Below are positions 1 to 62,596 of a stretch of 64,000 nucleotides of DNA, piece after piece (within the stretch, counting starts at the first letter, position 1; every line of letters begins with the position of its first letter). The notes below the pieces were generated by a model. It was not told the DNA's origin and made no database searches. It saw only the letters and a list, made by a program, of their open reading frames with translations. Made by a program: the position numbers and the translations under genes. The stretch is from Methyloceanibacter stevinii (GTDB taxonomy: Bacteria > Pseudomonadota > Alphaproteobacteria > Rhizobiales > Methyloligellaceae), in NCBI RefSeq assembly GCF_001723355.1, contig NZ_LPWE01000010.1, positions 124,001 to 188,000 on the forward strand, read 5' to 3'.

Positions 1-62
1 GCTACCGCAAGGGAATTTCTGCATTCGCAGACACACACGGATTGGATACGGAACAAGAATGA
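1..62 (+). CDS. 3' end of an upstream gene (partial), probably the ylxR-like member of the nusA-infB operon
   Basis: The third frame is open from the window edge and ends in TGA at 60-62. Its last 19 codons overlap the infB ATG (59-61) in an ATGA junction, the usual mark of translational coupling. In alphaproteobacteria the gene before infB is normally the small RNA-binding protein YlxR (DUF448), preceded by nusA. Only 19 residues are visible, too few to recognise the family, so the identity is inferred from position alone. The other two frames are also open here, so this could be non-coding. Confidence 0.35.
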
Positions 63-2566
63 GCGAGACCAACGAGACTGAAGGCAAGAGCGGCGGGCGC
101 AAGATGACGCTTAATTTGCGCCGAACGGTGGAGTCGGGCCATGTGCGCCAGAGCTTCAGCCATGGGCGCTCCAAGTCCGTCCTGGTCGAGAAGAAAAAGC
201 GCCGGTCCATCGGATCTGGCGGCGCGGCCGACGAGGCCAAAGAGAAGCCGCAGGCCAAGTCCGCCGCAAAAGAGGCGCCTGCGAGAGAGCCTGCACCCAA
301 GCCGGCAGCCAGCAAGCAGCGCCGTTCCGGCGCGTCTGAAACAGCTCTCCGAAGAGGAGAAGGGCGCGCGCGCCAAGGCGCTTGCCGACGCCCGGGTCCG
401 CGACGCCGAAGAGCGCGAGCGGGCCAAGGAGGATGCTGCCAAAGAGGCCGCCCTCGCCGAGCAGCGCGCCAAGGAGGCCGCAGAGGCCGAGGCACGCGAA
501 CGCGAAGAAGCGGCCCAAAAGGCCGCCGAGGCGGAAGCCGAGGCCAAGGCGAAGCCCAAGGCTGCGCCGAGCGCCGAGGCGCCGCGCCGGCCGATGGAGC
601 CCGATCAGGAGGGCCCGAAGCGCCAGCCGATGCCCGGCATAAGAAAGCCACGCCGACACCGCGCCGTGGCGAAGAGCGCCGCGTTCGCGGACGCCTCACG
701 ATTACCAACGCACTCGACGAAGAGCAGCGGCAGCGGAGCCTTGCCTCGCTGAAGCGCCATCGCGAACGGCAGAAGAAGCAGGGAACCGGACCTCAGACGG
801 GCCAGAAGATCGCCCGTGAAGTGACGATTCCCGATGTCATCACGATCCAGGAACTCGCCAACCGCATGGCCGAGCGCGGCGTCGAAATCATCAAATACCT
901 GATGAAGGACGGCGCGATGCACAAGATCACCGACGTGATCGATTCCGATACCGCGCAGCTCATCGCCGAAGAGTTCGGCCACACCGTGCGCCGCGTGTCG
1001 GAAGCCGACGTGGAAGAAGGCTTTATCGGCGAAAAGGACAACGAAGAGGATCTCGTCCCGCGCGCGCCCGTGGTGACCATCATGGGCCATGTGGACCACG
1101 GCAAGACCTCGCTTCTGGACGCCGTCCGGGCCGCCAATGTGGTCAGTCAGGAAGCCGGCGGAATCACTCAGCATATCGGTGCCTATCAGGTCACCATTCC
1201 GTCGGGTCAGAAGATCACCTTCATCGACACGCCGGGTCACGCGGCCTTCACCGCCATGCGTGCGCGCGGCGCCAAGGTCACGGACATCGTCATTCTGGTG
1301 GTGGCCGCCGATGACGGCGTGAAGCCCCAGACCATCGAGGCGATCAATCACGCCAAGGCGGCTGAGGTGCCGATCATCATCGCCATCAACAAGATCGACA
1401 AGCCGGGCGCCGACCCGCAGCGGGTCCGCACGGAACTGCTGAGCCACGAGATCGTGGTGGAAAGCATGGGCGGCGACACGCTCGAGATCGAGGTTTCGGC
1501 GCTCAAGAGAACCAATCTCGACGCGCTGCTGGAAGCGGTCGTGCTGCAGGCGGAAGTCCTGGAGCTCAAGGCCAATCCCGACCGCCCCGCCGATGGCGTG
1601 GTCGTCGAAGCCAAGCTCGAGCGCGGGCGCGGTCCCGTCGGCACGGCCTTGGTTCAGCGCGGCACGCTCCGGCTCGGCGACATCATCGTCGCGGGTTCCG
1701 CCTGGGGCCGTGTCCGCGCCCTGATCAACGATGTTGGCGAGCACACGAAGGAAGCCGGTCCGTCCGTTCCGGTCGAGGTTCTGGGCTTCGACACGGCGCC
1801 GGAAGCCGGCGATCAGTTCGCCGTCGTCGAGAACGAGGCGCGGGCCCGCGAGATCACCGAATACCGTGAGCGCGAGCGCCGCAAGACGCTTGCCGTCGCC
1901 GGTCAGCGCGGCAGCCTTGAGCAGATGATGAATCAGCTCAAGGAAGATGGGATCAAGGAATTCCCGCTCGTCATCAAGGGCGACGTGCAGGGCTCGGTCG
2001 AAGCAATCAATGCGGCGCTCAGCCAGCTCGGCGACGACGAGGTCCGGGCCCGTCTCGTCCATGTCGGCGTCGGTGGCATCACCGAGTCCGATATCTCCTT
2101 GGCCTCTACATCGGGTGCCGTGGTGCTGGGCTTCAACGTGCGCGCCAATGCGCAGGCCCGCGCGGCCGCCGAGCGCGACGGCGTGGAAGTCCGTTACTAC
2201 GCGGTGATCTACGACCTCGTCGACGATATGCGCCAGGCCATGTCGGGCCTTCTTTCGCCGACACGGCGCGAGACCTTCCTCGGCAATGCCGAGATCCTGG
2301 AAGTGTTCAACATTTCCAAGGTCGGCAAGGTGGCGGGCTGCCGCGTCACCGAGGGCAAGGTCGAGCGCGGTGCTCATGTCCGCCTGATCCGCGACAACGT
2401 CGTCATTCACGAAGGCGAACTCTCCACGCTCAAGCGCTTCAAGGACGAGGTCAAAGAGGTCGTGGCCGGCCAGGAATGCGGCATGGCGTTCGAGGGCTAT
2501 CAGGACATGCGCGAGGGCGACGTGATCGAGTGCTTCCAGGTGGAGCACGTCCAGCGCACGCTCTAG
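59..2566 (+). CDS. infB: Translation initiation factor IF-2 (with a compensated frame slip in the N-terminal linker)
   Basis: GTPase that places initiator fMet-tRNA on the 30S subunit and promotes subunit joining. The frame reads 835 residues. The start has the usual alphaproteobacterial IF-2 opening ([20 protein letters not shown] at about residue 16). An IF2_N segment with [15 protein letters not shown] lies near residues 260-330, G1 GHVDHGKTS at 343, G3 DTPGH at 390 and G4 NKID at 444, followed by domains II-IV to the C-terminus. Between about 330 and 625 the open frame reads as Arg/Gly nonsense. The +1 frame over the same bases gives the normal charged linker ([20 protein letters not shown], then Ala/Glu/Lys heptads). 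So there is one extra base near 320-335 and one missing base near 610-640. Length and all catalytic motifs are otherwise normal. First complete gene of the infB-rbfA-truB-rpsO-pnp cluster. Confidence 0.97.
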
Positions 2567-2630
2567 CCGCGGCGCTTTGAGCCACTCCTGCCTGGGCGCA
2601 ACCGAAACACGGATTCGACGAGACCGACCG

Positions 2631-4434: not shown

Positions 4435-4452
4435 CGCATGCCGCGGCGTGCG
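4435..4452 (+). other. Hairpin in the rpsO-pnp intercistronic region
   Basis: Seven paired bases (one G-U) close a CGCG tetraloop directly after the rpsO stop codon and about 90 bases before pnp. In E. coli a stem-loop in the same position is cut by RNase III, and PNPase then autoregulates its own mRNA. No T-run follows, so it is not an obvious terminator. The regulatory role is inferred from position only. Confidence 0.35.
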
Positions 4453-4541
4453 TGGGAGCTTCCACATTTATGCACGGGCTCGTCCCATCGCCACCGGGCG
4501 GCGGGACGGCCTATTCTTTCCCTACCGAATGGGACACACAC

Positions 4542-6662
<2,121 letters not shown>

Positions 6663-6997: not shown

Positions 6998-7912
6998 CTA
7001 GCGATCCATACGCAGCGGCAAAGCTGTCGGTTGACTATTGCGCGGCTTCCCGCGGCGCGCCTTGGCCATCGCGTTGCCGATTTCCTCAGCGCGCTCGATC
7101 TCCTTCAGCGACTCGAGGTCGGGCATAAAGGTCGTTGCGTAACCGCAATCGACGAAATGCACCTCGCCCGTGACCGCGCCGGAAAGATCGGACAGGAGAT
7201 ACAGCGCGGAGCCGCCGACCTCGTCGAGCGTCGGCGAGCGGCGCATGGGCGCATGCTGCTGCTGGTAGTGGAGCAGGGTCCTCGCATCGGAAATACCCGC
7301 GCCCGCCAGCGTCCGCATGGGTCCTGCTGACAGCGCGTTCACGCGGATGCCTTGCGGCCCGAGATCGGACGCCAGATAGCGCACCGACGCTTCCAGGGCC
7401 GCCTTGGCGACGCCCATGACGTTGTAGCAGGGCACGACGCGCGTCGAGCCGCCATAGGTCAGTGTCAGCAGCGAGCCGCCTTCGTTCATGATGTCAGAGG
7501 CGCGCTTGCAGATCTCCGTGAAGGAAAAGCAGGAGATGACCATCGTGTGCTCGAAGTTCTTCCGCGTCGTGTCGCAGTAGCGGCCCTTGAGCTCGGTCCG
7601 GTCGGAGAAGGCCAGCGCGTGAACGACAAAGTCCAGCTTGCCCCACTTTTTCCGGATCACGTCGAGCATGCGGTCGACGCTATCCAAATCCTCGACGTCG
7701 ACTTCTTCGATGATCTCCGCGCCGATAGATTCGGCCAGGGGTACCGCGCGCCGGCCAAAGGCGCCGCCCTGATAGCTGAACGCCAACTCGGCGCCCTGTC
7801 CGTGCAGCACGCGGGCAATGCCCCAAGCGATCGATCGATCGTTGGCGACGCCCATCACCAAGCCGCGCTTGCCCGCCATCAGCGGTCCAGGTTCTGCAAT
7901 ATCTTTCGTCAT
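6998..7912 (-). CDS. fabI: Enoyl-[acyl-carrier-protein] reductase [NADH]
   Basis: Catalyses the last step of each fatty-acid elongation cycle and is the triclosan/isoniazid-class target. SDR-fold protein with the FabI-type cofactor loop GLVMGVANDRSIAWGIA, the HALAFSDR...LKGRY segment and the Tyr163-x6-Lys170 catalytic pair (YNVMGVAK). The C-terminal tail after FMPDLESL is about 30 residues longer than in E. coli. ATG 7912 is taken as the start; an in-frame TTG at 7930 is possible. It lies 46 bases downstream of fabB in the fabA-fabB-fabI cluster. Confidence 0.96.
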   Translation of the reverse strand: MTKDIAEPGPLMAGKRGLVMGVANDRSIAWGIARVLHGQGAELAFSYQGGAFGRRAVPLAESIGAEIIEEVDVEDLDSVDRMLDVIRKKWGKLDFVVHALAFSDRTELKGRYCDTTRKNFEHTMVISCFSFTEICKRASDIMNEGGSLLTLTYGGSTRVVPCYNVMGVAKAALEASVRYLASDLGPQGIRVNALSAGPMRTLAGAGISDARTLLHYQQQHAPMRRSPTLDEVGGSALYLLSDLSGAVTGEVHFVDCGYATTFMPDLESLKEIERAEEIGNAMAKARRGKPRNSQPTALPLRMDR

Positions 7913-7958
7913 CGTGCTTACTCTGCTCAAAGTTGCCTAAAGTCTCGTTCCGTCGGCC

Positions 7959-9179
7959 TCAGCCAGCCAACCGGCGGAAAACGAGGGAGGCGTTCGTGCC
8001 CCCAAAACCAAAACTGTTGGACATTACCGTGTTCATCACAATGCCGTCCTGACGTTCACGGACAATTGGGACGTCCGCAACCTCCGGGTCAAGGTTTTCG
8101 ATATTCGCGGATTCGCAGATGAAGCCGTTCTTCATCATCAGCAACGAATAGATCGCCTCGTGCGCCCCAGCCGCGCCGAGCGAGTGGCCCGTCAGCGATT
8201 TGGTGGCGCTGATCGGCGGACAGTCCTTGCCGAACACGTCGCGAATGGCCTGGATCTCCAAGACGTCGCCCTGTGGCGTGGATGTCGCATGCGGATTGAT
8301 GTAGTCGACCTTGTCACCGCCGAGGCCCTGCATGGCCATCCGCATACAGCGCACCGCGCCCTCGCCCGACGGCAGCACCATGTCGTGGCCATCCGACGTC
8401 GCGCCATAGCCGACAAGCTCCGCATAGATCTTCGCGCCGCGCGCCTTGGCATGCTCCAGCTCCTCGAGGCACAAGCACGCCGGCGCGCCGGCGATCACGA
8501 AACCGTCGCGCGCCGCGTCATACGCGCGGCTGGCTTTTTCCGGCTGGTCGTTGAAGTCCGACGACATCGCGTTCATTGCATCAAACAGAACCGACAGCGT
8601 CCAATCGAGCTCCTCGCCCCCGCCCGCGAAGACAACGTCCTGCTTGCCGAGCTGGATCAGCTCGGCTGCGTTGCCGATGCAGTGCGCGCTCGTGGAGCAG
8701 GCCGACGAAATGGAATAGCTCACGCCCTTGATGTGATAGGGCGTCGACAACGTGGCCGAATTCGTCGAGCTCATGGATTTGGGGACCTCGAACGGTCCGA
8801 CCTTTTTCGGCCCGCGCTCGCGCGTCGTATCGGCGGCCTGGACGATGGCCCGGGTCGAGGGGCCGCCAGAGCCCATGATCAGCCCGGTGCGCTCGTTGGA
8901 GATGTCGCTCTCCTCCAGCCCCGCATCCTGGATGGCCTGTTCCATGGCCACGTAGTTCCAGCCCGCGCCCGCGCCCATGAAGCGGCGAACCTTCCGGTCG
9001 ATCGCACCCTCCCATTCGAGCGACGGAGCGCCATGAACCTGGCAGCGGAATCCGAGTTCGGCGTATTTGTCGGCCTTGACGATGCCGGACTTCGCCTCCC
9101 GGAGAGAGGCCACGACTTCCTGAGCGTTGTTTCCGATCGAGGAAACGATGCCCATGCCGGTTACGACCACGCGTTTCAT
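7959..9179 (-). CDS. fabB: 3-oxoacyl-[acyl-carrier-protein] synthase I (KAS I)
   Basis: Condensing enzyme needed for elongation of unsaturated fatty acids. It has 406 residues. The thiolase-fold Cys-His-His triad is visible: Cys161 in [10 protein letters not shown], His297 in [12 protein letters not shown] and His332 in [14 protein letters not shown], with Lys327 before it. Its position directly after fabA supports KAS I (FabB) over FabF, because fabA-fabB pairs make the anaerobic unsaturated pathway. Confidence 0.97.
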
Positions 9180-9882: not shown

Positions 9883-10431
9883 ATGACGCAGGTCAAGGTA
9901 CCAAAACGTGCGCCAGGACATAGCATTGCGGTCGCCGTGGGTTCCCACTATATTCCCAGCTTCAATGACTTATTCGAACGAGACGATGACAGAGATCACG
10001 ACCGCAGACGATCCCAAGATGCTCCGGCCGGCGACGCAGCAAGGCTGCTGCGCGGTGCCGGGCTTCGGCCCACGCGTCAGCGTCTCGCCCTCGCCCGCCT
10101 GCTCTTCGCCGAAGGCGACCGGCACGTGACGGCCCGACGCCTGCACGAGGAAGCCGTCGCTTCACAGGTCCCTGTCTCGCTGGCGACCGTTTACAACACG
10201 CTCCACCAGTTCACCGAGGCTGGCCTGTTGCGCGCCGTGGCCGTGGAAGGCGCGAAGACGTATTTCGACACCAACACGTCCAACCATTTCCACTTCTTCT
10301 GCGAGGACAGCGCGGACCTGCTCGATATCGACACGAGCGCGATCCGCATCGAAGGGCTGCCCCAAGCGCCTGACGGCAAGGTGATCTCGCGGGTGGACGT
10401 GCTGGTCCGTCTCGTCGACAAGGACGGCTAG
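9883..10431 (+). CDS. irr: Iron response regulator Irr, Fur family (N-terminus uncertain, probable frame slip)
   Basis: Haem-responsive Fur-family regulator of iron and haem genes in Rhizobiales. The conserved body runs from GLRPTRQRLALARLLFAEGD through PVSLATVYNTLHQFTEAGLL to the His-rich NHFHFFCED segment and ISRVDVLVRL. The intact frame begins at ATG 9883, giving a long unusual leader. A better N-terminus (MTEITTADDPKMLRP from ATG 9986, or 9965) lies in the next frame and would join DAARLLRGAGLRPTRQ if one base were missing near 10025-10030. The N-terminal haem regulatory motif GCPWHD of Bradyrhizobium Irr is not seen, as in Rhizobium-type Irr. Divergent from fabA. Confidence 0.9.
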   Translation: MTQVKVPKRAPGHSIAVAVGSHYIPSFNDLFERDDDRDHDRRRSQDAPAGDAARLLRGAGLRPTRQRLALARLLFAEGDRHVTARRLHEEAVASQVPVSLATVYNTLHQFTEAGLLRAVAVEGAKTYFDTNTSNHFHFFCEDSADLLDIDTSAIRIEGLPQAPDGKVISRVDVLVRLVDKDG

Positions 10432-20815: not shown

Positions 20816-21081
20816 ATGGCCAATACCAAGTCGGCGAAGAAAGCCGTTCGCCAGATTACCCGTCGTACCGCCGTCAATAGACCCGGCGGAGCAATATGCG
20901 CAGCTACCTGCGCAAGGTCGAGGAGGCGATCGCCTCCGGCGACAAGGATGCCGCTCAGGCTGCCCTGCGCAGCGCCGAGCCGGTTGTCGCCCGCACGGCC
21001 CAGCTTGGCATCCTCCACCGCCGCGCGGCGTCGCGGAAGGTTTCGCGCCTCGCCAAGCGCGTCGGCGCGATGGGTGCGTAG
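20816..21081 (+). CDS. rpsT: 30S ribosomal protein S20 (one-base frame slip)
   Basis: Binds 16S rRNA early in 30S assembly. The first 22 codons read [20 protein letters not shown], then the frame goes to nonsense. The rest of S20 ([20 protein letters not shown] to [17 protein letters not shown]) continues in the -1 frame to TAG 21079-21081. Restoring one base after AGA (20881-20883) gives a normal 88-residue S20. An S20 gene truncated at 22 codons in a chromosome with no other copy visible is unlikely, so the slip is probably a sequence error. rpsT directly upstream of the dnaA region is a common Rhizobiales arrangement. Confidence 0.93.
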
Positions 21082-21925: not shown

Positions 21926-22371
21926 TTGGGCGCGCGCATGGACAATTACACGGTCGATGAGGTTGATGTGGCGTCGACCTGGAGCGCTCTCCAGGGGAAT
22001 CCTCGATCGCAGTTAGTCGATGTGCGTACACGCGCGGAGTGGACTTATGTGGGCATCCCGGATCTGGGGGCCCTCGGCAAACGGGCTGTCCTTGTTGAGT
22101 GGCAGACCTTTCCCGACCAGTCCGTCGACCCGCGCTTTGCCGATCGGCTTGCACACGAGTTGCAGGCTCTCGGTGTCCAAGTAGACGACGATCTTTTCTT
22201 CATTTGCCGTTCTGGTAGCCGGAGCTTGGCCGCGCCAACGCGATGGCGTCGGCGGGGTATCGCGCTTGTCACAACGTCTCGGAGGGGTTCGAAGGACCGC
22301 TCGACGACGATAGGCATCGGGGCATCCTGTCTGGTTGGAAAGCGACTGGGCTCCCCTGGCTACAGGGCTAG
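21926..22371 (+). CDS. Rhodanese-like domain protein (one-base frame slip)
   Basis: Single rhodanese domain, about 145 residues. The N-terminal half shows SQLVDVRTRAEWTYVGIPD and the catalytic loop FFICRSGSRS with the active-site Cys (residue 90 counted from Met 21938). The frame then slips near 22238. The -1 frame continues the family's C-terminal half (MASAGYRACHNVSEGFEG and WKATGLPWLQG) to TAG 22369-22371. The strong GGAGGAGG (21911-21918) is seven bases from TTG 21926 and too far from ATG 21938, so TTG is the likelier start. Probably transfers or carries sulfane sulfur; partner unknown. Lies 115 bases before dnaA. Confidence 0.85.
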
Positions 22372-26644: not shown

Positions 26645-29080
<2,436 letters not shown>

Positions 29081-42628: not shown

Positions 42629-43483
42629 TTAGGCCTCGACCAAGTCCAGAACGTAGTTCGGCAGCGCGAACGCGGCGACGTGGACACGCGGATTCCAGTA
42701 CTTCGTCGGGAACGCGCCCGCCGCGGCGTAGCGCCATTCGATCTCGCCGACCGTATATTGCCGCAGGTCGTCGTTGTCGCTCGCCCAGCCATAGGACATG
42801 GCATCGCCGAAATAGCTCGGCGTGGTCGCCATGTAGGCGAACGCGTCCTCGAACAACTCGCGGAAATAGCCGACGGACTGCTTGAGCTCGGACGCTTGGA
42901 GGAAGGGCAGCCCGTTCTGCGTGACGAGGACGCCGCCCGGCGCCAGCGCGCGCCTGCAATCGGCATAGAACTCTTCGTGAAGAGCACAGCCCCCCGGCCC
43001 GATCGGGTCGGTCGAGTCCACGAGGATCACGTCGAAGCGCTCGTCCGTCTCGGCCACGAATTTGGTGCCGTCGGCAATGACGACGCGCGTACGCTTGTTG
43101 TCGAAGGCGCCGTTCGAAATTTCCGGAAAGTGCTCCCGGCAAAGATCGATCACGCTGCCGTCGATCTCGCATAGCGTCGCGCGGCTTGCGTCCGGATGCC
43201 GCAGCACCTCGCGCAGGACCCCGCCGTCGCCGCCGCCGATCACGAGCACGTTCTTCGCCTTGCCATGAGCGAACAGCGGCACGTGCGCCATCATCTCGTG
43301 GTAGACGAACTCGTCCTTCGTGGAGACCTGGACGACGCCATCCAACATCATCACGCGGCCGAAATCTTTGTTCTCGAAGATTATCAGCTGCTGATGTTCG
43401 GTCTGGCTGTCGAACAGAACCTTGTCCGCCTTCAGGCGGACGCGGAAGCCGCCATGGAGTGTCTCTTCGACCCAACGGTCCAT
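42629..43483 (-). CDS. speE: Spermidine synthase
   Basis: Transfers the aminopropyl group from decarboxylated SAM to putrescine. In 284 residues: YHEMMAHVPLFAH, the dcSAM-binding motif VLVIGGGDGGVLREVLRH, LCEIDGSVIDLCREHFP and the catalytic DSTDPIGPG loop. Its start lies inside the end of speD (52 bases overlap), so speD-speE form one operon on this strand, with PFK convergent. Confidence 0.96.
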   Translation of the reverse strand: MDRWVEETLHGGFRVRLKADKVLFDSQTEHQQLIIFENKDFGRVMMLDGVVQVSTKDEFVYHEMMAHVPLFAHGKAKNVLVIGGGDGGVLREVLRHPDASRATLCEIDGSVIDLCREHFPEISNGAFDNKRTRVVIADGTKFVAETDERFDVILVDSTDPIGPGGCALHEEFYADCRRALAPGGVLVTQNGLPFLQASELKQSVGYFRELFEDAFAYMATTPSYFGDAMSYGWASDNDDLRQYTVGEIEWRYAAAGAFPTKYWNPRVHVAAFALPNYVLDLVEA

Positions 43484-43971: not shown

Positions 43972-44186
43972 GGCGTCCTCCCCAACCAGTAGATAGATCC
44001 AGTCGAATAAGGGGCAGTTCTTTGCACCGCGCGAGTCACCCTTGCAAGTGGTTTTTTGGTGGCAAAGGTCACATTGGGACCCCGTGACGCGTGGTATGAA
44101 CATCACGGACGCGCTCTAACTTCGATTGTGACAGTCGGCGCCTTCCGCCGAGGCTGGCACGCCCTTCCCGAGGAGCCTGTGCGACA

Positions 44187-45288
44187 ATGACCTTGTTGGT
44201 ACGAAGCTGGGCCGCGACCCAATCTGCCGCTCTCAGTTCGGTGCTCTGCTGGGCACTGTTCGTGCCCGGACAAGCCGCCGCCGAGGCGCTGCCAAAGCTC
44301 GGCGCCGCCCTGTCGCAGACGTCCGTTTCCGGCCTGTCGTCCGGCGCCTTCATGGCCGGGCAGTTAGAGATCGCGCATTCCGAGAACATCGCAGGCGCAG
44401 GAATTGTCGCCGGCGGTCCTTTCGCCTGCGCCGAATCAGCATCCGCACGGCTGTTCCCCTATTGGGCCACGGGGGTGGCGCAGAACGCGATACAGGCGGC
44501 GCAGAGCTGCATGAAAACCACCCTCGGCGAGCCGGATCCGGAGAAGCTTTTGGCGCGCGCCCGCGGCCTGGCCGAGGACGGCGATATCGATCCGCTCTCG
44601 GCGCTGGCGACGCACAACGTCTATCTCTATTCCGGCGACAAGGATTCCACGGTCAGCCGCCCCGTGGTCGAAGCCGCCAAGAAATTCTACGAACTCGCCG
44701 GCGTGCCAGGGGGCAATATCTCCTATGTGGAGGGTGACGGCGGCCACGCCTTCATCACCGAAGAAGGCGGCGCGGCTTGCGGCCTGTCGGAAACGCCCTT
44801 CGTCAGCGACTGCGACTACGACCAGGCACGCGCCATCCTCGGCTGGATCTACGTCCGCTGCGCCCGCGGCCGGCGAAGCGAAGGGCGACTTCGTCGTGTT
44901 CGAACAGGCCGAGTTCACCGAAGCCGGCGAAGGGCTGGCCGACGAAGGCGTCGTCTATATCCCGCCCTCGTGCCGGGAGACGCCCGGCTGCCGCGTGCAC
45001 GTGGCCTTGCACGGCTGCCAGCAATCGCGCACCCGAGTCGGGGGCACCTTCATCGAGGACACGGGCTACGCGGAGTTGGCCGACACGAACCGGCTGATTA
45101 TCCTGTTCCCGCAGATCGCCTCCAGCGTCGTGAACCCCCAAGGGTGCTGGGACTGGTGGGGCTATACGGGTCTCGACTATCTTGGCAAGGGCGCGCCGCA
45201 GATCAGCGCGCTCTGGAAGATGGTGGAACGTCTCGCGGAACCTCCAGCGGAGGAAGCCCCGGCGGAGGCGGCGCCCGTACAGGAGTGA
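44187..45288 (+). CDS. Secreted polyhydroxybutyrate depolymerase-like esterase (one-base frame slip)
   Basis: Exported alpha/beta-hydrolase of the PHB-depolymerase family. A signal peptide (about residues 10-32, ending GQAAAEA) is followed by the nucleophile elbow VSGLSSGAFMAGQLE, the acidic region YLYSGDKDSTV and GDGGHAF. After a slip near 44853 (one extra base or two missing) the other frame continues the family: VHVALHGCQQSRTRVG, then NPQGCWDWWGYTG and a Pro/Glu-rich tail to TGA 45286-45288. About 367 residues when repaired. The open frame otherwise runs into the next gene, a false fusion. Works outside the cytoplasm, unlike phaZ. Confidence 0.88.
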
Positions 45289-45293
45289 CCGTC

Positions 45294-45756: not shown

Positions 45757-46221
45757 ATGACTTTAGAGGTCGGCGACAAGGCGCCCAGTTTCAATCTTCC
45801 GACGGACGGCGGCGGCACCATCTCCCTGAAAGACCTCAAGGGCGAAACCGTCATCCTCTATTTCTACCCGAGGACGATACGTCAGGCTGCACGGCGGAGG
45901 CCTGCGCCTTTCGCGACGCGCTTCCCGGATTTCTCCAAGGCGAAGGCGAAAGTCATTGGCATCTCCAAGGACCCGGTGAAGAAGCACGACAAGTTCAAGG
46001 AGAAATACGAGCTGACATTTCCGCTGGCCTCGGACGAGGACGGCGCGGTGTGCGCGGACTACGGCACCTGGGTCGAGAAGAGCATGTACGGCCGCAAATA
46101 CATGGGCATCGACCGCTCGACCTTTCTCATCGACGGCAAAGGCGTCATCCGCGCGATCTGGCGCAAGGTGAAGGTGCCGGGCCACGTGGACGAGGTGCTG
46201 AAGGCGGCGCAAGAGCTCTAG
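45757..46221 (+). CDS. bcp: Thioredoxin-dependent peroxiredoxin Bcp (compensated frame slip over the active site)
   Basis: Reduces hydroperoxides. The 154-residue frame has GDKAPSFNLPTDGGG, ISKDPVKKHDKFKEKYELTFPLASDE and the FLIDGKGVIRAIWRKVKVPGH end. The expected YPxDDTSGCTAEACAFRDALPDF reads instead as Arg/Ala nonsense (45873 to about 45927). In the -1 frame those bases give DDTSGCTAEACAFRDAL, including the peroxidatic Cys. One base is missing near 45873 and one extra near 45925. As printed, the protein would lack its catalytic Cys. Confidence 0.92.
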   Translation: MTLEVGDKAPSFNLPTDGGGTISLKDLKGETVILYFYPRTIRQAARRRPAPFATRFPDFSKAKAKVIGISKDPVKKHDKFKEKYELTFPLASDEDGAVCADYGTWVEKSMYGRKYMGIDRSTFLIDGKGVIRAIWRKVKVPGHVDEVLKAAQEL

Positions 46222-46239: not shown

Positions 46240-47708
46240 GTGTCAAAATCTGTCATGCGCTCCGGCAGGATCTGGCTGGCCGCGCTGACTGTCGTGATCG
46301 CGGCGGTCGCGCTCTTCGCCGTGCCGCCGCTGTACCGCGTCGCTCTGCTCGGCTCCGGCTACATGGCCCAGCAGCTTTGCGCCGGGCTGTTCGTCTCGGG
46401 CCGGAGCTTCGACGACGTGATGGCTGAGGACTTGTCGGGCCCCGGCCTCGGTGCATTGGCTCTCTTCAGGCCCCATGTGGACGAAACGGGCAAGACCGTG
46501 CGCGCGTCCACGTTCGGAATCGCCGGTCAGACGGCGGTCTTCCAGGAAGGGCTGGGCTGTACGCTCATCCGGCATCAATCGCCGGACGCGCTTCGGGAAC
46601 GGACCGCCGATCTATTTGCTTCCGACCCGCCGGCGGCACCGGACGCGGAGTGGCCGCAAGGGTCGCGCGTCGCGGCCGGCGACTGGCACAATGACTTCGA
46701 ATGGCCCGATGGCGTAGATGGGCCGGCCGCGTCCCAGGCCGTCGATGCCGTGTTCGCGGACCCGGTCCCGGCACGCCCGCGCAACACGCGGGCACTCGTG
46801 GTGGTGCACAAGGGCCGCATCGTCGCCGAACGCTATGCCGCCGGATTCGATGCGCATATGCCGCTCGTCGGGTGGTCCATGAGCAAGACGGGAACGAACG
46901 CGCTCATCGGCCTGCGGGTGAAGGATGGCGCGCTTGCACTCGACGACACGCGCCTGATGCCCGAATGGCTCGGGCGCGACGACATGCGCGGCGAGATCAC
47001 GCTCAACACGCTGCTGCGCATGACGTCGGGACTAGCCTTCCACGAGGACCCCGACGACAAGCTTAGCGACGTGTCGCAGATGATGTTCGTGCAAGAGAAT
47101 ACGGCGGCGTTCGCGGCCTCGAAACCGCTTGCATATGCGCCCGGGACCCATTGGTCGTACTCGACGGGCGCGGCGGCGATCCTGTCCGGCGTACTCCGCG
47201 AGACGTTCGACAACGAGCGGGACTATTTGCGCTACCCGCGGAAACGCCTTTTCGGCCCGCTCGGCATGCGCTCGGCGCAACTCCCGCCCGATGCGTCCGG
47301 CACGTTGATGGGCGGCGCGTTTCTCTACGCCTCGGCGCGCGACTGGGCCCGGCTCGGGCTCCTGTATCTACAGGACGGAAAATGGGACGGCGTGCAGATC
47401 CTCCCCAAAGGCTGGGTCGCCTACACGACGCGGCCGACGGCTCAATCGCCTGAGGACGAGTACGGGCGCAGATCTGGCTGAAGCTGGAGAAGTCAGAGAA
47501 CCTCGGCGAGCCGCCGATGCCCGCGGACTCGTTCTACATGCTGGGTCACAACGGTCAGGCCGTGGCCATGATCCCATCCAAGGACCTCGTCATCGTGCGG
47601 CTGGGTCAAACACTGAACGGCGGCGACTGGGACACGGCGCGCGACCTCGGTCCGCTCGTGAACGCCTTCCCCGACAATAAACCGGAAGCCAGGTTCTTAG
47701 GCGAATAG
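46240..47708 (+). CDS. Beta-lactamase-family serine hydrolase (one-base frame slip)
   Basis: Class C beta-lactamase/DD-peptidase fold, probably an esterase or peptidase of the envelope. An N-terminal anchor (about residues 11-33) is followed by the SxxK nucleophile in VGWSMSKTGTNALIGL, the Tyr motif THWSYSTGAAAILSG and, after a slip near 47465 (one base missing), the C-terminal DSFYMLGHNGQAVAMIPSK with the third motif. Start is GTG 46240. About 489 residues repaired; the printed frame stops at 47481. Its end overlaps the nucleoside transporter by 12 bases, tail to tail. Confidence 0.88.
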
Positions 47709-49081: not shown

Positions 49082-50367
49082 TCAGCCGAAGACCTGGCCC
49101 GTGATGGTCTGGTACCAGTCTTGGGCGTAGCCCGCCTCGCTCCGCCGGAACTTGTCCGATGCATGAGTCGGGCTGACGCCGCCGGCGTTCTCGATGGCCT
49201 CGATGGTGTCGTCGCCCTGCCTGTAAACGCCGGCGACGGAGATGCCATAGTCGGGCGCCACGAGGCTGTAGCAGACATTGTCCAGTTTCGTCCGAATCGG
49301 CTCTTCACCGTTCAGGAGACGGGCGACCTGCATCGCGCACACCTTGCCTTGCGCGTTCGCGGAGAAAGCGGATTTCGGCATGGCGCCTGCGATCGAAGCA
49401 TCGCCGAGAACGTGGATTCCCGGCTGCAGGCGCGACTCGAACGTCACCGGATCGATCGGACACCAGCCTGTTGCGTCCGCAAGACCGGTGTCCTGGGCAA
49501 TCCTAGGCGCCTGTTGGGGCGGGATGACATTGGCCACGTCCACGCGGAACTCGCGCGTCTCCGTCACCAGCACCTTCTCCTTTGGCTTGACCGCGATGAC
49601 GCGTCCGAAATCGAAGATCCCGTGCCATTCGACCCTATCGCCGTAGAGTTGCTTCCAGGCGCGCCGAAACAGGAGGTCTTTCGAGAAGGACTCTTTCGAG
49701 TCCAGGATGAGCACCTTCGCGCGCGGCTTGTGCGCCTTCAAATAGTGCGCGATCAGGCTCGCGCGCTCATACGGACCGGGGGGACATCGAAACGGATTGG
49801 TGGGTGGCGCGATGGCCACCACGCCGTCGTCAGGCATTTCCTCGATCTGCTTGCGCAGGAGCACGGTCTGTGGCCCCGCCTTCCAGGATGGGGCATGATT
49901 TCCGCCGCCGCTTCATCGTAGCCCGCGATCGCGTTCCAGATGAATTCGATGCCCGGCGCCATGATCAAGCGATCGTAGGAGAAGACGAGCCCCCCGTCCG
50001 TCCGCACGGTCTTCGCAGCGGGGTCGACACGGGTCGCCTTCTCGAACACGACGCGCACGCCCGCAGCTTCGACGCCGTCATAGCCGAAGCGCAGTATCGA
50101 GTACGGCTTCAACCCGGCGATCACGGCATTGCTGAAGGGGCAGGAATAGTAAGCGCGCTTCGGCTCGATCAGCGTCACCTCAAGGCGCGGATCGGCGGCG
50201 CGCAAGAAACGTGCGACGGTCGCACCGCCATAACCGCCGCCGATCACCACCACCCGTGCGGACGTGCCCGCCGCCTTCAACCGCGTGGGCAGGCTGGCGG
50301 CAATCGCCGCGGTCGCGGCCGTCGCCAAGAACCGGCGGCGGGTCGGCGTGCTGGGGCCAGAGCTCAT
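49082..50367 (-). CDS. fccB: Flavocytochrome c sulfide dehydrogenase, flavoprotein subunit (one-base frame slip)
   Basis: Periplasmic FAD subunit that oxidises sulfide. A Tat signal (RRRFLATAATAAIAAS) leads to the FAD motif VVIGGGYGGATVARFL and Cys76 (YYSCPFSNAV), the residue type that covalently holds FAD in this family. After a slip near 49884 (one base missing) the rest continues with NPFRCPPGPYERA and LDNVCYSLVAPDYG, the two Cys of the redox disulfide, and VLGDASIAGAMPKSAFSANAQ. About 428 residues repaired. Downstream of fccA. Confidence 0.93.
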
Positions 50368-50797: not shown

Positions 50798-50855
50798 GTC
50801 GCGCTCAGGACCAGCGCGCGTTGCGGGCGTTCTGGCCCGCGGAGGACCCTGTTTG

Positions 50856-50932
<77 letters not shown>

Positions 50933-52109: not shown

Positions 52110-52218
52110 GAGGCCGGAAAACCCGGCTTCATGGCTTACTTGACGCGCTTGAGCATAGGCGTCACCTATGCGGCCTCAAGGCTAAGAGGCGGCTGGGCAG
52201 CCGAGGGTGAATAAGAGG

Positions 52219-53888
52219 ATGGCGGATAAAAAGAAGGTCATCGTTATCGGCGGCGGTTTTGGCGGCGTGTTCGCGGCCAAATCCTTGGAGAAGCTCGCAC
52301 GCGGCAATGTCGACGTCGAGCTGATCAACAACAACAACTATTTCGTGTTTCAGCCCCTCCTGCCGGAGGTGGCGTCGTCGAACCTCAACTCTTCCGACGC
52401 GGTGGTGCCGCTGCGGCAACTCCTGAGCCGGGTGCAGGTGCGCCAGGCGCGCGTTATGGGCATCGATTTCGAGCGGAAGATCGTCATCGTCATCCAGGGC
52501 GCCCGGATGACGCCCGTGGAACTGCCCTACGACGAGCTCGTCATCGCGCTCGGCACCGGCGTGGACCTCGCCCGCATTCCGGGCATGTCGGACCACGCCT
52601 TGACGATGAAGGACCTGACGGATGCGCATATGCTGCGCACCCACGTGATCGGCTGCCTGGAGACCGCGGACGTCACCACCGATACGCTGGTCAAGGATCA
52701 GCTCCTGACCTTCGTCGTGGTGGGTGCTGGCTTTTCAGGCGTCGAGACAGCTGCCGAGACCAACGAGCTGATCAGCCGCGCGCTGCGCTACTACCACAAC
52801 ATCAAGCCCGAAGAGATCCGCATGTATCTCATCGAGTTCGCGCCGCGCATCCTGCCCACCTTCCCCGCGGACCTCGCCGACTACGCCACCAAGAATCTCC
52901 GGGCGAACGGGGTGGAGGTCCTGACCGGCGTGGGGACGAAGTCGGCCACGTCCACGGGCGTCGAGCTGACCAACGACCGGGTGATCAACTCCTCGACCAT
53001 CGTGGCCACGATCGGCAACGGGCCGCACCCGCTCGTGGACGCGCTCGGCCTCGACATGAAGTGGGGCCGCATCAAGACGAACCGGTTCATGCAGGTGCCC
53101 GGTCACGACCATGTTTGGGCACTGGGCGACGCGGCGCTGATCCCGCTCAACGACGACCCGCAGGACGATCCGGCGGACTACGCGACGCAGACCGCTCAGT
53201 TCGCGGTCCGCGAGGGCGCCCAGCTGGCCGCCAACATCGTGGCGAAGCTCAAGGGCGAGCCGCTGAAGCCTTTGCCTACACGTCCAAGGGCTCGCTCGCC
53301 TCGCTCGGCATGAGTAAGGCCGTGGCGGACGTCTACGGCGTCAAAATGCACGGAATTTTGGCCTGGCTTCTGTGGCGCGGATTCTATCTGTCCTTCCTGC
53401 CGGGTCTCGTGTCGAAGTTCCGCGTCGGGCTGAACTGGATGATCAACGCCGTGATGCCGCCCAATATCGTGCAACTGCGCATGCCGGCGCCGGCCACCCG
53501 CTACATCCATTACTGGGAGGGCGACAAGGTCTTCGAACCCGGCATGCTGATCGACGGCTTCTACACGGTGATCAAGGGCCGCTTCAAACTGACCATCGAC
53601 AATCCCGACACCGGCGAGCATTTCGAGAAAGAGTTCGGGCCTGGCGACCATTTCGGCGAGCGCGTGCTACTCAAGTCGCATTTGCGCACCGGCCTCGTCG
53701 AGGCGCTTGACGACGGCCTGCTGCTCTTCACCGCGCAGAAGGACTTCCGGCGCTTCGCGCGTGCCTTCCCGCCGCTCGAGAAGTACTTCCGGAGCTATAT
53801 CGACGCGACTTTCGGCGGTCCGGACAAGGCCTTCGCACCGGGCAATGTCATGGACGAGAAGGAAGACGAGCACGAGCCGCAGGCCTGA
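52219..53888 (+). CDS. NDH-2-like NAD(P)/FAD oxidoreductase fused to a cyclic-nucleotide-binding domain (one-base frame slip)
   Basis: About 556 residues. The N-terminal type II NADH dehydrogenase-like part has the FAD motif VIVIGGGFGGVFAAKSL, the second dinucleotide motif FVVVGAGFSGVETAAETN and the AALGDAA-type WALGDAALIPLND. After a slip near 53271 (one base missing) it continues YTSKGSLASLGMSKAVADVYG and membrane-associating helices. It ends in a cNMP-binding fold with MLIDGFYTVIKGRFKLTI and FGPGDHFGERVLLKSHLRT. ATG 52219 is preferred over GTG 52207. Electrons probably go from NAD(P)H to quinone, gated or sensed by the cNMP domain. Confidence 0.88.
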
Positions 53889-53978: not shown

Positions 53979-56948
53979 ATGACCAAGAAGAGCACCGCCT
54001 CATCCGGCGCCAGCAAGCCCGCAGGGCCCAACAAACCCGCGGGGCCTGGCGACCACGTCTACCTGATCGATGCCTCGGGCTATATTTTCCGCGCCTATCA
54101 TGCGCTGCCGCCCCTGACGCGCCCCTCTGACGGCCTGCCCATCGGAGCCGTGCACGGCTTCTGTGCCATGCTGTGGAAGCTGTTGCGGGACGCGGGCGAG
54201 CTCGACCCGCCGACCCATCTGGCGGCGATCTTCGACAAGTCCGAGCATACGTTCCGGAACGACCTCTACGAGGCTTACAAGGCCAACCGGTCGGAGACGC
54301 CCGAGGATCTCGTGCCCCAGTTTCCGCTGGTGCGCGATGCAACGCGCGCCTTCAACGTGGCCTGTATCGAGAAGCTCGGCTACGAGGCCGACGATCTGAT
54401 CGCGACCTACGCCCTGCAGGCCAAGGACGCCGGCGCCGACGTCACCATCGTCTCGTCCGACAAGGATTTGATGCAGCTCGTCGGACCCGGCGTGCGCATG
54501 TACGACACCATGAAGAACAAGGTGATCGGCGAGGAAGGCGTGGTCGAGAAATTCGGCGTGCCGCCCGACAAGGTCATCGAGGTGCAAGCGCTGATCGGCG
54601 ACACGTCCGACAATGTGCCGGGTGTGCCGGGCATCGGCGTCAAGACGGCCGCCCTGCTGATCGGCGAGTACGGCGACCTCGATACGCTTCTTGCGCGCGC
54701 CTCCGAGATCAAGCAGCAGAAGCGCCGCGAGAACCTGATCGAATTTGCCGACCAGGCGCGGCTGTCGCGCACGCTCGTGACGCTGGACACGCAGACGCCG
54801 CTGGACGTGCCGCTGGCCGAGACGGCCGTGCGTGCGCCGGAGCCTGAGGCGCTGCTCGGCTTCATGCGCGAGATGGAGTTCACCACGCTGACGAAACGCG
54901 TGGCCGAGGGGCTCGGCGCGCCCGTCCCTGACGGCCTCGACAAGCCCAAGAAAACTGCCCGCAAGAAGAAGGACGACTACGATCATCCGCTGCGGCAGAG
55001 CCCGCGCGGCGCCACCGGACCCGCCCGCGATATTGCCGTGCAGGGCGGATCGCCCCGCGAACTGGCAGCCGAACGCCAAGGCCGGATCGAGGATATCCCC
55101 TTCGACCGCGCCACCTACGAGACCGTGACCGACACCGCACGGCTATCGGAACTCGTGGAGGCGGCGCGCGAGCAAGCCTTCGTGGCCCTGTCGGTGAAAC
55201 GCGACCGCGCCGACCCCATGGCATCCGACATTGCCGGCATCGCACTGTCGCTCACGCCCGGCAAGGCGGCCTACATTCCCATGGCCCATCGCGCGGGTGA
55301 CGGGCTCGATCTCGGCGGCGGTCCGGAGATTGCGCAAGTTCCTCCCGGAGAGGCGCTGAAACTGCTGAAGCCGCTGCTCGAAGACGAGGCCGTGCTGAAG
55401 ATCATCGCCGACGCCAAGCCCGCCATGGTGGTGCTGGCCCGCTACGGCATCGCCCTGGACAGCGTCGACGACCCCACGCTCATCTCTTATGCGCTGGATG
55501 CCGGGCGCTCGGACCACAGCCTTGCGAAGCGGACGGCGGCCCTGTTCGGACACACCTGCTTCACTGAGAAGGAGGTGGTGGGCACCGGCAAGTCCGCGAT
55601 CCCCTTCGACCAGGTGGACGTGCCCCGCGCCACGGAAGCCGCGGGCGAAGAAGCCGACGCGGCCATGCGGATGTGGATGGTGCTGAAGCCCCGCATGCCG
55701 TCGGAAGGCGTCACGGCCGTCTACGAGACGCTCGAGCGGCCGCTGGAGCCGGTCCTTGCGGAGATGGAACGGGCAGGCATCAAGGTGGACCGGGCCATGC
55801 TGGCACGCCTCTCCGGCTCGTTCGCGCAGACCATCGCGCGGCTCGAAGACGAGATCCGCGAACTGGCTGGCGAGGACTTCAATATAGGCTCGCCCAAGCA
55901 GCTCGGCGAAATCCTGTTCGACAAGATGAGCCTGCCCGGCGGGCGCAAGACCAAGACCGGCGCCTGGAGCACGGACGCCGCCGCGCTCGAGGAGCTCGCG
56001 GCCGCGGGCCACGATCTGCCGCAGAAGATCCTCGAATGGCGGCAACTCGCGAAGCTTAAAAGTACGTACACGGATGCTTTGCCGGCCTACATCAACCCGG
56101 ACACGGGACGCGTGCATACGCGCTACGTTTTGGCGTCCACCACGACGGGGCGCCTCGCCAGCCAAGAGCCGAACCTGCAGAACATTCCCGTGCGCACCAA
56201 GGAGGGCCGCGAGATTCGCAAGGCCTTCGTGGCCGAGGCCGGCAAAACGCTGATCAGCGCGGACTACAGCCAGATCGAGTTGCGCGTGCTGGCCCACATG
56301 GCCGACACGCCGACTTTGCGCCAGGCCTTCGCGGACGGCCTCGACATTCACGCCATGACGGCGTCGGAGATGTTCGGCGTGCCCATTGAGGGCATGGACC
56401 CCGGCGTGCGCCGCGCGCCAAAGCCAATCAATTTCGGCATCATCTACGGCATCTCGGCCGTGGGCCTCGGGGCGCAGCTCGGCATCCCGCGCGGGGAAGC
56501 GGCCGCCTATATCAAGACCTATTTCGAGCGCTTCCCGGGCATCAAGGACTACATGGAGCAGATGAAGGCGGAGGCGAAGCATTCCGGCTACGTCTCGACC
56601 CTCTTCGGGCGCAAAGTCCACTACCCCGAGATCAACACGAAGAATCCGTCGCTACGCGGCAACTACGAGCGTGCCGCCATCAACGCGCCGATCCAAGGGT
56701 CGGCGGCGGACATCATCCGCCGCGCCATGATCCGCATGCCGGAGGCTTTACGCGATGCGGGGCTCGAAGCGCGCATGCTCTTACAGGTTCACGATGAGCT
56801 GATCTTCGAAGCGCCGGAAAAGGAAGCGGAGAAGACCATGAAGGTCGCGCGCGAGATCATGGAAACCGCGCCCGCCCCCGCGCTCGAGCTCAAGGTGCCG
56901 CTACAGGTCGACGCCCGCGCCGCCGACAACTGGGAGGCCGCGCATTAG
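53979..56948 (+). CDS. polA: DNA polymerase I
   Basis: Family A polymerase for Okazaki-fragment maturation and repair. In 989 residues: a 5'-3' exonuclease (about 25-310, VYLIDASGYIFRAYHALP, ANRSETPEDLVPQ, GDTSDNVPGVPGIG), a linker rich in Lys, a degenerate 3'-5' exonuclease (about 395-570) and the polymerase (about 600-989) with STTTGRLASQEPNLQNIP, SADYSQIELRVLAHM, the O-helix Lys in RRAPKPINFGIIYG and LLQVHDELIFEAP. In the proofreading domain the usual DxE is Ser405-Val-Lys407 and the second-motif Asp is Ala482. The frame is intact. Confidence 0.97.
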   Translation: MTKKSTASSGASKPAGPNKPAGPGDHVYLIDASGYIFRAYHALPPLTRPSDGLPIGAVHGFCAMLWKLLRDAGELDPPTHLAAIFDKSEHTFRNDLYEAYKANRSETPEDLVPQFPLVRDATRAFNVACIEKLGYEADDLIATYALQAKDAGADVTIVSSDKDLMQLVGPGVRMYDTMKNKVIGEEGVVEKFGVPPDKVIEVQALIGDTSDNVPGVPGIGVKTAALLIGEYGDLDTLLARASEIKQQKRRENLIEFADQARLSRTLVTLDTQTPLDVPLAETAVRAPEPEALLGFMREMEFTTLTKRVAEGLGAPVPDGLDKPKKTARKKKDDYDHPLRQSPRGATGPARDIAVQGGSPRELAAERQGRIEDIPFDRATYETVTDTARLSELVEAAREQAFVALSVKRDRADPMASDIAGIALSLTPGKAAYIPMAHRAGDGLDLGGGPEIAQVPPGEALKLLKPLLEDEAVLKIIADAKPAMVVLARYGIALDSVDDPTLISYALDAGRSDHSLAKRTAALFGHTCFTEKEVVGTGKSAIPFDQVDVPRATEAAGEEADAAMRMWMVLKPRMPSEGVTAVYETLERPLEPVLAEMERAGIKVDRAMLARLSGSFAQTIARLEDEIRELAGEDFNIGSPKQLGEILFDKMSLPGGRKTKTGAWSTDAAALEELAAAGHDLPQKILEWRQLAKLKSTYTDALPAYINPDTGRVHTRYVLASTTTGRLASQEPNLQNIPVRTKEGREIRKAFVAEAGKTLISADYSQIELRVLAHMADTPTLRQAFADGLDIHAMTASEMFGVPIEGMDPGVRRAPKPINFGIIYGISAVGLGAQLGIPRGEAAAYIKTYFERFPGIKDYMEQMKAEAKHSGYVSTLFGRKVHYPEINTKNPSLRGNYERAAINAPIQGSAADIIRRAMIRMPEALRDAGLEARMLLQVHDELIFEAPEKEAEKTMKVAREIMETAPAPALELKVPLQVDARAADNWEAAH

Positions 56949-56951
56949 GTG

Positions 56952-59902: not shown

Positions 59903-59905
59903 CGG

Positions 59906-60600
59906 CTAGCTGCGCGGCAAGCGATCGAGCCAATCGTTGAACAGCCGATGGCTGGCTTCGTTGGTGGCCGGGGCATAACGGGCCGCGGTGGCGCGCATCT
60001 CGCCCAAATCCACATTGGAGTTGGCCAGTTCCAACGTGTGACCGATGAGCCAGCGCTCCATGTCCTCTTTGGGCAGTTCCACATGGAACTGCAGCGCTAG
60101 CACGTTGGGGCCGTATGCGAAGGCTGGTTGGGCGTGATCGTGGTAGAAGCGAGCCGCGTGGCGCCGGACGGCAGATCGAACGTGTCGCCGTGCCAGTTCA
60201 GAATATGCAGGCCTTCCAGCACGCCGAGCGGCGAGGCCTTGCCTTCCTCGGTCAAGGTGAGCTGGTCCCAGCCGAGCTCTTTCTCCGCGCCGGGGTAGAC
60301 GCGGGCCGCGAGCACCGCCGCCAGGGCCTGCGCGCCGAGGCAGATGCCCACCACGGGCGTACCCTTCTTGACCACGGCCTCGATCAGCTTCAACTCGTCG
60401 GTCAGGAAAGGATAGCGCTCGAACTCGTAGACGCTGATGGGCCCGCCGAGGATGAGCACGAGATCGGCGTCGAGCGCCGGGCTGAGATCGTCGCGTCCCG
60501 CTTGAAGATAGGTGAGATCGACGCCGCGCTCGGCGAGCACGGGGCCGACCGTGCCGGCATCCTCGAATGCCACGTGATAGATCGCGACGGCGTTTTTCAT
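59906..60600 (-). CDS. Class I glutamine amidotransferase-like protein (one-base frame slip)
   Basis: GMP-synthase-type amidotransferase domain, about 231 residues. The nucleophile Cys87 is in VVGICLGAQALAAVL, with LILGGPISVYEFERYPFL before it. After a slip near 60141 (one base missing) the other frame continues DHAQPAFAYGPNVLALQFHVELP with the catalytic His and a C-terminal helix. Free-standing enzymes of this group often act on small amides; the substrate is unknown. Convergent with the APC-like permease. Confidence 0.88.
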
Positions 60601-60654: not shown

Positions 60655-60858
60655 CTATTGCCTGTGTGCGACACCGTGTTGTTCGTTTGCGACATAGGAT
60701 GAGAACACGGAAGTGACACGCCAGAAGCCAAAAACGTAGGTGGTAGCTACAAGAACGAAGATCAGAAGCAGCGCAACGATCGCAAAGCTTCCTCGCGCGC
60801 CCGCTTTGAAGCGGCCCCATTCCACCGAAAGAGAATCATTGGGGGATTTGTCTGTCAT
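60655..60858 (-). CDS. Small single-span membrane protein
   Basis: 67 residues with one membrane helix (about residues 25-44: FAIVALLLIFVLVATTYVFG) flanked by a basic and an acidic end. Function unknown. ATG 60858 (MTDKSPNDSL) follows GAGAGG. Upstream on this strand a TTGACA (60925-60930) with a poor -10 may be its promoter. An ACCAA/TTGGT hairpin at 60869-60883 lies just before the ribosome-binding site. I do not recognise a family. Confidence 0.6.
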   Translation of the reverse strand: MTDKSPNDSLSVEWGRFKAGARGSFAIVALLLIFVLVATTYVFGFWRVTSVFSSYVANEQHGVAHRQ

Positions 60859-61075
60859 CAGGTCACACCTCTCACCAAAATGATTGGTGCAACCCAGAAA
60901 TATGTTTGCGACTGGCAGGGTGATTGTCAAAGCATAACTAGTTCTTGTGCGGTGCATCTCCACAGGGCCGGTGCGAAGAGAAATTCGCCCGCAATCATAT
61001 TGCTAGGGAGTTTTTGCGCTGCAACTGAACTAAGAATTCTCAGCATTTCTAGTGCTCGGGACGGTGCAAAGACCG

Positions 61076-62596
61076 CTATGCGACCTTCGCGACGCCCTGA
61101 CGGCGCGGATCGCCGGCCCCTTGCGCGCCCTTCTTCTCGTGCCAGCGCGCCACATGCACGCCGCCGAAGAACAGGTTCCGCTCGGGCCAGGCCTTGGCTT
61201 TCGCGCTGAGCGCGCGCAGGGCCGCCTCTTCCTCTTCCGTGAAGCCCGGCTCGAAGCTCACCGTGCCGCAGCGTTCGACATGCAGACGCGGCGCGTTCAC
61301 CGCGTCCTCCACCTCCATACGGTGCGCCATGATGTTGACCGCCACCTGCAGAATCGCGGTGCGGATACGGTTGGACCCGCCCGTGCCGAGCGCGGTGACC
61401 GTGCCGTCGGCTTCCAGAATGATCGTCGGGGCCATCATGGAGGACATGCGCACGCCTTCGCGAAACTCGCCAGGCTCGCCGCCCACCACGTCTTCCTCGC
61501 CGAGCATGTTGTTCAGCATGAAGCCGTGGTCGCCGACGATGAAACCGTTGCCCTCGCCGTTGGAGAGGCTGACGGCGGCGGCGTACCCTCCGCGCGATGA
61601 CGCTGATGTGGGTCGTGCCGCGATAGGCCTGCGGGGCTGCCACGCTCGCGGCGATCTCCCCGGCGAGAGCACCGGCCGCCAGCTTCGCGGCGAGCTGATT
61701 GCCATGGGTGCCGCGCACCTCGTTGGTCGCGATCATGGCCGCGCCCAGCGCGCGCGCATCGATCTCCTGCCCCAGCGCGGCATGGGCCTCGAGATAGGAC
61801 AGGCCGTAGGCGATGAGCGCGCCGCCCGCGCTCGGCGGCGGATTGAGCGCGACGGCACCGCCGCCGAAGCGCCACAGGAGCGGATCGCGCACGCACACCT
61901 CGTAGCGTTTGAGGTCGTCCATGGTGAGATGCCCGCCGAGGCCCTGGGATTGGGCGGCGATGGAATGGCCGATATCGCCATCGACGAAAAGGCGTGCGCC
62001 GTCCTCGGCGAGCCAGGCGAGCGTTTCGCCGAGCCCTTCGTTGCGGAAGGTATCCCCGCCTTTGAGGAGCGTGCCGCCGGGGGCGAAGATCGCCCGCGCC
62101 GACGCACTTTCCTGCAGGTCGGTGCGACGACCGTGAACAGATAGGCTTGGAAGTCCGAGAGCGGAAACCCTTGGTTCGCCGCGCGGCGGCCGGCTCGACC
62201 AGCCGCTTCATAGGCAGGCGCCCATAGGCCTCGTGCATGGCGAAGAGGCCTTGCGCAATGCCGGGCGTGGCGCTGGCCCCAAGCCCGATATGGAACTCCT
62301 GGGTAGCAGGTCCGAAATTCGCGTTGATCGGAAAGAAAGAGACTTCGTTCGCGGGTCGACGCTTGAGCGGCGTCTCCACGAAAAAAGTCGAACAACTTCG
62401 CCGCCCGCTGGCCCGCGGCCCGCGCCATCAGGAAGCCGCCGCCGCCCGGAGAGGAAAACACGGCTTCGGCGACGAAGCTCATGCACACGCCGGCAATGGC
62501 CGCATCGAAGGCGTTGCCGCCATCGGCGAGGATTTCGGCGGCGGCCTCGGCGGTCAGGCTATGGCCGGCCGCGACGACGGATTGGGGATTGTTCAT
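61076..62596 (-). CDS. ggt: Gamma-glutamyltransferase (four frame slips, net zero)
   Basis: Ntn-hydrolase that cleaves or transfers gamma-glutamyl groups (glutathione turnover). About 506 residues. N-terminal MNNPQSVVAAGHSLTAEAAAE and EAVFSSPGGGGFLMA are followed, in shifting frames, by GATTHISV-type GTTHISV (the Thr that becomes the nucleophile after autocleavage), then SLSNGEGNGFIVGD and LGTGGSNRIRTAILQVAVN. Slips: one extra T near 62383, one base missing near 62196, one missing near 62117, one extra near 61592. Net frame is restored. No clear signal peptide, unlike periplasmic GGT. Confidence 0.87.

Follow-up and report, generated by a model that had tools for sequence, protein, structure and literature searches.

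The window analysed here, a 64-kb stretch of the Methyloceanibacter stevinii genome (contig positions 124001-188000; the genome has 3,216,104 bases in 14 contigs), carries many frame slips in conserved genes. As judged from sequence comparison, these slips are with high probability consensus errors introduced into the genome record by sequencing or assembly, and the genes of the living organism are very probably intact. The initial annotation had likewise read them as sequencing or assembly indels and not as gene decay. This reading is supported by full purifying selection, the small number of nonsense changes, displaced stretches that kept their old frame, and the presence of the pattern in four assemblies. 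The support extends to the accompanying warning that pseudogene annotations arising from these slips are suspect.

The window was placed in Methyloceanibacter by its DnaA matches, the best of which has 93% protein identity, and it contains no ambiguous N bases. Six relatives that are collinear over all or most of the window region were fetched: the closest relative G014 (one contig, with a nucleotide identity to the window of about 95%), G004, UBA7697 (G003), M. methanicus R-67174 (G013), M. superfactus R-67175 (G012), and the metagenome-assembled genome (MAG) M_DeepCast_65m_m2_016 (G008). G004 is also a single contig, but covers only the last 18 kb of the window because a large insertion fills its fetched stretch. 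To detect slips, the reading-frame phase of the relatives' open reading frames (ORFs) was carried onto the window in BLAST alignments, with MAFFT alignments for comparison. About 25 slips had been listed for the 64 kb, and alignment to the collinear relatives recovered 25 of 25. Twenty-one of them are backed by three or more relatives that make up no less than 60% of those covering the site; the other four are the two in infB and those in irr and the rhodanese gene. The support is not always unanimous (ABC ATPase, 3/4 relatives; second PFK slip, 4/5; ggt, 4/5 to 5/6), and the window's phaZ gap is also present in M. superfactus and its ggt gap at 61594 in M. methanicus. Private frame changes in this region number 32 for the window and 3 for the closest relative, compared over about the same length; the pair 40310/40330 among the 32 should be discounted as an alignment problem in a poorly alignable, hypervariable stretch.

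For assigning gaps to lineages by outgroups, 246 kb of the contig were joined with the same region of G014, M. methanicus, and UBA7697. It was found that 100 frame-changing coding gaps fall on the window lineage versus 9 on the G014 lineage, while the in-frame coding gaps number 8 versus 2. These counts exclude gaps with an unclear outgroup or none (48 frame-changing coding and 57 non-coding). Per polarisable kb, the window lineage has 0.56 gaps in coding and 0.77 in non-coding DNA, and G014 has 0.05 and 0.70. Thus, coding DNA is spared of gaps in G014, which is the usual depletion, but hardly at all in the window lineage. In the aligned portion of 421 kb, the window genome has a net frame change relative to 63 of 330 ORFs from G014. 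A mirror control, which counted ORFs of the window genome broken in the relative (43/343 vs 63/330; 10/71 vs 16/65 on four other contigs), was dropped since slipped ORFs include their own slip, and outgroup polarisation was used instead.

The substitutions tell of selection. Over 59,239 codons, the nonsynonymous/synonymous counts away from gaps are 354/2463 (0.144) in the window lineage and 316/2298 (0.138) in G014, and nonsense changes number 1 versus 0 away from gaps, plus 2 versus 0 near gaps. Within 30 nucleotides (nt) of gaps, the counts are 29/69 in the window lineage and 8/72 in G014; more nonsynonymous changes beside gaps are expected if error patches also contain wrong bases. The share of window-lineage substitutions at the old third codon position is 74% in displaced stretches, 77% where such genes remain in frame, and 78% in gap-free genes. 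The affected proteins evolved under selection in the original frame. Relaxed selection was looked for in the affected genes through substitutions and displaced stretches, and no sign of it was found.

Is the window special within its genome, or the genome within its genus? Four pieces of other contigs (C2, C11, C13, and C14, out of nine fetched) were compared over about 75 kb aligned with no outgroup, and the G014 ORFs there have 14, 9, 13, and 7 frame-changing gaps, respectively, which are unpolarised. The slip density is similar to that of the window, so the window is not special. When one rule is applied over the 64 kb, the rate of private frame changes per 10 kb is highest for the window (5.85), followed by M. 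superfactus (5.30), M. methanicus (3.14), G008 (1.91), UBA7697 (1.44), G014 (0.53), and G004 (0). Private slips were also counted around dnaA in a panel of 15 assemblies, each contributing between 2.0 and 18.6 kb of coding sequence, with frame runs shorter than 24 nt ignored. M. superfactus has 8, the window has 5, M. methanicus and M. marginalis have 4 each, the MAG L029 has 1, and the other ten have 0. Save for the one L029 case, the slips are confined to the window and the three isolates, which bear neighbouring strain numbers (M. methanicus R-67174, M. superfactus R-67175, and M. marginalis R-67177); the pattern tracks the project rather than the phylogeny. The window genome may belong to the sequencing series of these isolates, and a common sequencing and assembly procedure probably lies behind the signature of all four. 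The isolates' group reportedly used Ion Torrent. The sequencing procedure of the four isolate genomes is not stated in PMC7409863, nor in the available parts of PMC7996495 and PMC7660913.

The listed slips are distributed over the genes of the window as follows.

infB, 59..2566, plus strand: losses at 332/334 (332-335) and 625, net three bases; ORF open, 835 amino acids; 2/2 covering relatives by phase
irr (FUR family), 9883..10431, plus strand: one-base loss at 10021; 2/3 relatives by phase, 3/3 in the printed alignment
rpsT, 20816..21081, plus strand: one-base loss at 20879, about 22 codons into the gene; 5/5 relatives; the relative's intact protein matches Ribosomal_S20p
rhodanese gene, 21926..22365 (extent from the tblastn match of G008), plus strand: one-base loss at 22234; 1/1 by phase, 5/5 in the alignment; a relative's intact protein matches Rhodanese
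dnaA, 22487..23950, plus strand: gains at 23668 and 23685, net three; a further loss/gain pair at 22895/22906
recF, 25362..26558, plus strand: losses at 26026, 26145, and 26151, net three
phaZ, 32318..33588, minus strand: one-base loss at 33523; first about 22 codons displaced
ABC permease gene, 34306..35161, minus strand: one-base gain at 34937; 5/5 relatives
ABC ATPase gene, 35173..35969, minus strand: one-base loss at 35509; the 3/4 relatives are by phase
PFK gene, 41356..42603, plus strand: loss at 41658, then a compensating scrambled patch at 41738
esterase gene, 44103..45288, plus strand: one-base losses at 44852 and 44860 (44852-44860)
bcp (AhpC-TSA), 45757..46221, plus strand: loss at 45866, gain at 45922; 6/6 relatives
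serine hydrolase gene (Beta-lactamase Pfam family), 46240..47705, plus strand: frame change at 47463
fccB, 49082..50367, minus strand: one-base loss at 49887 separating the first FAD part from the remainder; 3/3 relatives
NDH-2 fused to a cyclic-nucleotide-binding domain, 52207..53888, plus strand: one-base loss at 53268; 6/6 relatives
class-I glutamine amidotransferase gene (by the relative's intact protein), 59906..60600, minus strand: one-base loss at 60124; 6/6 relatives
ggt, 61076..62650, minus strand: slips at 61584/61594, 62118, 62186, and 62386; the relative's intact protein matches the whole of G_glu_transpept

That the slips are mostly single-base holds in part. Many are one-base losses or gains, while infB, recF, and the esterase gene hold clusters (losses 2, 6, and 8 nt apart, respectively) and dnaA holds a two-base gain. 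The second infB slip, at 625, is ambiguous when aligned to M. methanicus. Each of infB, dnaA, recF, PFK, and bcp is one long ORF that retains its Pfam domains; these genes stay open because their slips add up to a multiple of three, and for the same reason compensated slips are invisible in a plain ORF list. Pfam searches on the intact proteins of relatives upheld the names of rpsT, rhodanese, amidotransferase, and ggt, and gave no match for the esterase, for which the relative's intact protein was scanned. A 518-amino-acid ORF (44187-45743) is the first part of this esterase joined to the next gene, of the GNAT type, by the double loss 44852/44860; the relatives have two genes here. The NDH-2/cyclic-nucleotide-binding fusion is an open frame of at least 561 amino acids in 13 of 16 strongly matching relatives, and is split or cut by the contig end in G001, G005, and G007.

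The alignments also gave slips beyond the initial list, together with two control genes.

pnp, 4452..6662, plus strand: tight loss/gain pairs at 6116/6132 (3/5 relatives) and 6389/6402 (4/5)
adh_short_C2, enoyl-ACP reductase-type gene, 6998..7930, minus strand: one-base loss at 7059, close to its 3' end
ketoacyl synthase gene (fabB), 7959..9179, minus strand: tight pair at 8469/8486; 4/5 relatives
spermidine synthase-type gene (speE), 42629..43483, minus strand: tight pair at 42973/42990; 5/5 relatives
polA, 53979..56948, plus strand: probable tight pair at 56409/56426 in a strongly conserved stretch
dnaN, 24250..25365, plus strand: no frame-changing gaps (control)
gyrB, 26648..29080, plus strand: no frame-changing gaps (control)

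The five genes gyrB, polA, dnaN, pnp, and fabB had been called clean. This stands for gyrB and dnaN, but pnp, fabB, and, less surely, polA hold tight loss/gain pairs. The polA pair appears as gaps versus 2/6 relatives by phase and its first member is unpolarised, while the window sequence differs from 6/6 relatives in this stretch, which I take to be the O-helix region of DNA polymerase I. The pairs of pnp and polA and the second pair of dnaA were called as gaps from BLAST alignments and are gap-free in MAFFT. It had also been claimed that essential genes are hit, and rpsT, dnaA, and pnp are indeed examples of conserved genes with slips.

Some other features were noted along the way. G014 has one-base losses of its own in fabB (window 8621) and in a histidine kinase gene (window 37273). 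At window 38971-41249, a DinB_2/FGE-sulfatase gene adjoins a histidine-specific methyltransferase gene; the pair is presumably egtB-egtD-like. In G004, the tRNA-Arg(CCG) gene (window 50850-50932) is the site of about 48.5 kb of additional DNA. Both edges of this DNA match window 50850-50903, which would fit an integrated element flanked by att-like repeats.

The slips had been described as lying near G/C, A, or T runs, and it was confirmed that losses concentrate in short homopolymers. The 82 polarised one-base losses, coding and non-coding together, comprise 19 in runs of 1, 45 in runs of 2, 13 in runs of 3, and 5 in runs of 4. In the larger, unpolarised gap set (401 kb aligned), the losses per 1000 runs are 0.16, 1.55, 2.09, and 2.75 for lengths 1 to 4. 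Among one-base gains, 36/45 extend a run. With the strands pooled, a G precedes 40 of 47 losses in C runs of at least two (background 54%), and the same is seen for 26/32 in M. methanicus. The rate thus depends modestly on local sequence, by homopolymer or motif. At 4 of 74 testable sites (0.54 expected), a one-base loss of the window genome is matched by one in M. methanicus no more than 4 nt away, which gives a faint hint of sequence-driven error.

The slips are also clustered. Consecutive spacings of 30 nt or less number 22, where 1.7 are expected, and 17 of the 22 are net zero. It was considered whether compensation is a sign of real selection, since at first 31 of 41 multi-gap genes summed to a multiple of three; after gaps 30 nt or less apart were grouped in the 401 kb, a strong excess was left only in the tight clusters. 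Genes with exactly two net-shifting clusters have a zero sum in 11/22 cases versus about 7 expected. A frame-correcting tool is an unlikely source of the compensation, with rpsT, the NDH-2 fusion, and others still broken and no N in the window. In the process that would account for these patterns, one base of a short G/C run, sometimes of an A/T run, would be lost or, less often, gained about once per 2 kb, and the errors would often come as tight loss/gain pairs no more than 20 nt apart.

Several observations weigh against consensus errors. The polarised non-coding gaps number 11 versus 10 in G014 over 14.3 kb, which is no clear excess where the coding rate predicts about 7 extra, although the numbers are small. 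No losses were found in 282, 36, and 6 runs of 5, 6, and 7 bases (324 in total), where about 1 is expected at the rate of 4-base runs. Of the tight multi-gap clusters, 38 of 49 are net zero, more than random signs yield. Pairs more than 30 nt apart are net zero in 15/39, near the about 12.5 expected from single slips (derived from genes that carry just one net shift, 40 in one phase and 10 in the other). The share of old third positions in displaced stretches is slightly below that of G014 (74% vs 79%). The non-coding result slightly lowers the confidence in consensus errors, which remain highly probable, and slightly raises the small chance that the indels are real and arose in a burst in a hypermutator culture only very recently, with the tight pairs as selected compensations. 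Such a burst would leave the substitution record unaltered, as seen, and the tight pairs are indeed mostly net zero; the lack of a clear non-coding excess leaves room for it, yet a burst should appear in non-coding DNA too. On the other hand, about one slip per 2 kb, essential genes included, would hardly be survivable, compensation is not clearly in excess among the wider pairs, and the same signature in three other species would need four separate bursts. A burst is therefore regarded as very unlikely.

Real gene decay, in which the lineage lost selection on many genes and frameshifts followed, might be suggested by the net frame change in 63/330 ORFs of the closest relative. However, the nonsynonymous/synonymous ratio away from gaps is not raised (0.144 vs 0.138), nonsense is nearly absent (3 in 59,239 codons, 2 of them beside gaps), rpsT, pnp, and dnaA are among the slipped genes, and the displaced stretches evolved in the old frame; decay is extremely improbable. 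Recoding, in which ribosomal slippage at the slip sites restores the frames, agrees with protein evolution in the original frame and with the GCC context common to most C-run losses. It is scarcely conceivable, since losses and gains are both present in many unrelated contexts, single bases included, and the frames at these sites are intact in the closest relative at about 95% identity. No conserved slippery site common to the relatives was found; the relatives are mostly intact and the contexts vary. There is an equally minute chance that the indels are real and that cultured Methyloceanibacter tolerate one frameshift per 2 kb through some general mechanism that repairs the frame during translation, chiefly at GCC runs.

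About one fifth of the tested genes (63/330) in this record would be labelled as pseudogenes or split, and the same kind of defect is present in three other assemblies of the genus. Claims of gene content, pseudogenes, or phenotype made from these assemblies require checking against re-sequenced genomes. The case also provides a worked test of consensus error versus decay, in the form of selection on substitutions, the count of nonsense changes, and the distribution of the pattern over assemblies.

Two known error patterns can be compared. For the Ion Torrent PGM, PMC5556038 describes deletions as likelier in homopolymers, with a correlation to run length for runs of 2 or more. Those are read errors, unlike the consensus errors here, and the platform of the window genome is not established; the likeness is that the loss rate here climbs from run length 1 to 4. 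In the Kastor study of consensus errors that fragment genes in draft assemblies (PMC12007338, with the keyword nanopore), the detected errors made up less than 0.05% of the genome, and the pseudogenes fell from 23.3% to 5.6% after correction. The present case differs in that the losses lie in runs of 1 to 4 bases, the few longer runs having none, and in that tight pairs are common. It resembles the Kastor drafts in scale and effect, with 111 polarised gaps in 221 kb aligned, or about 0.05%, and 63 of 330 ORFs net-shifted.

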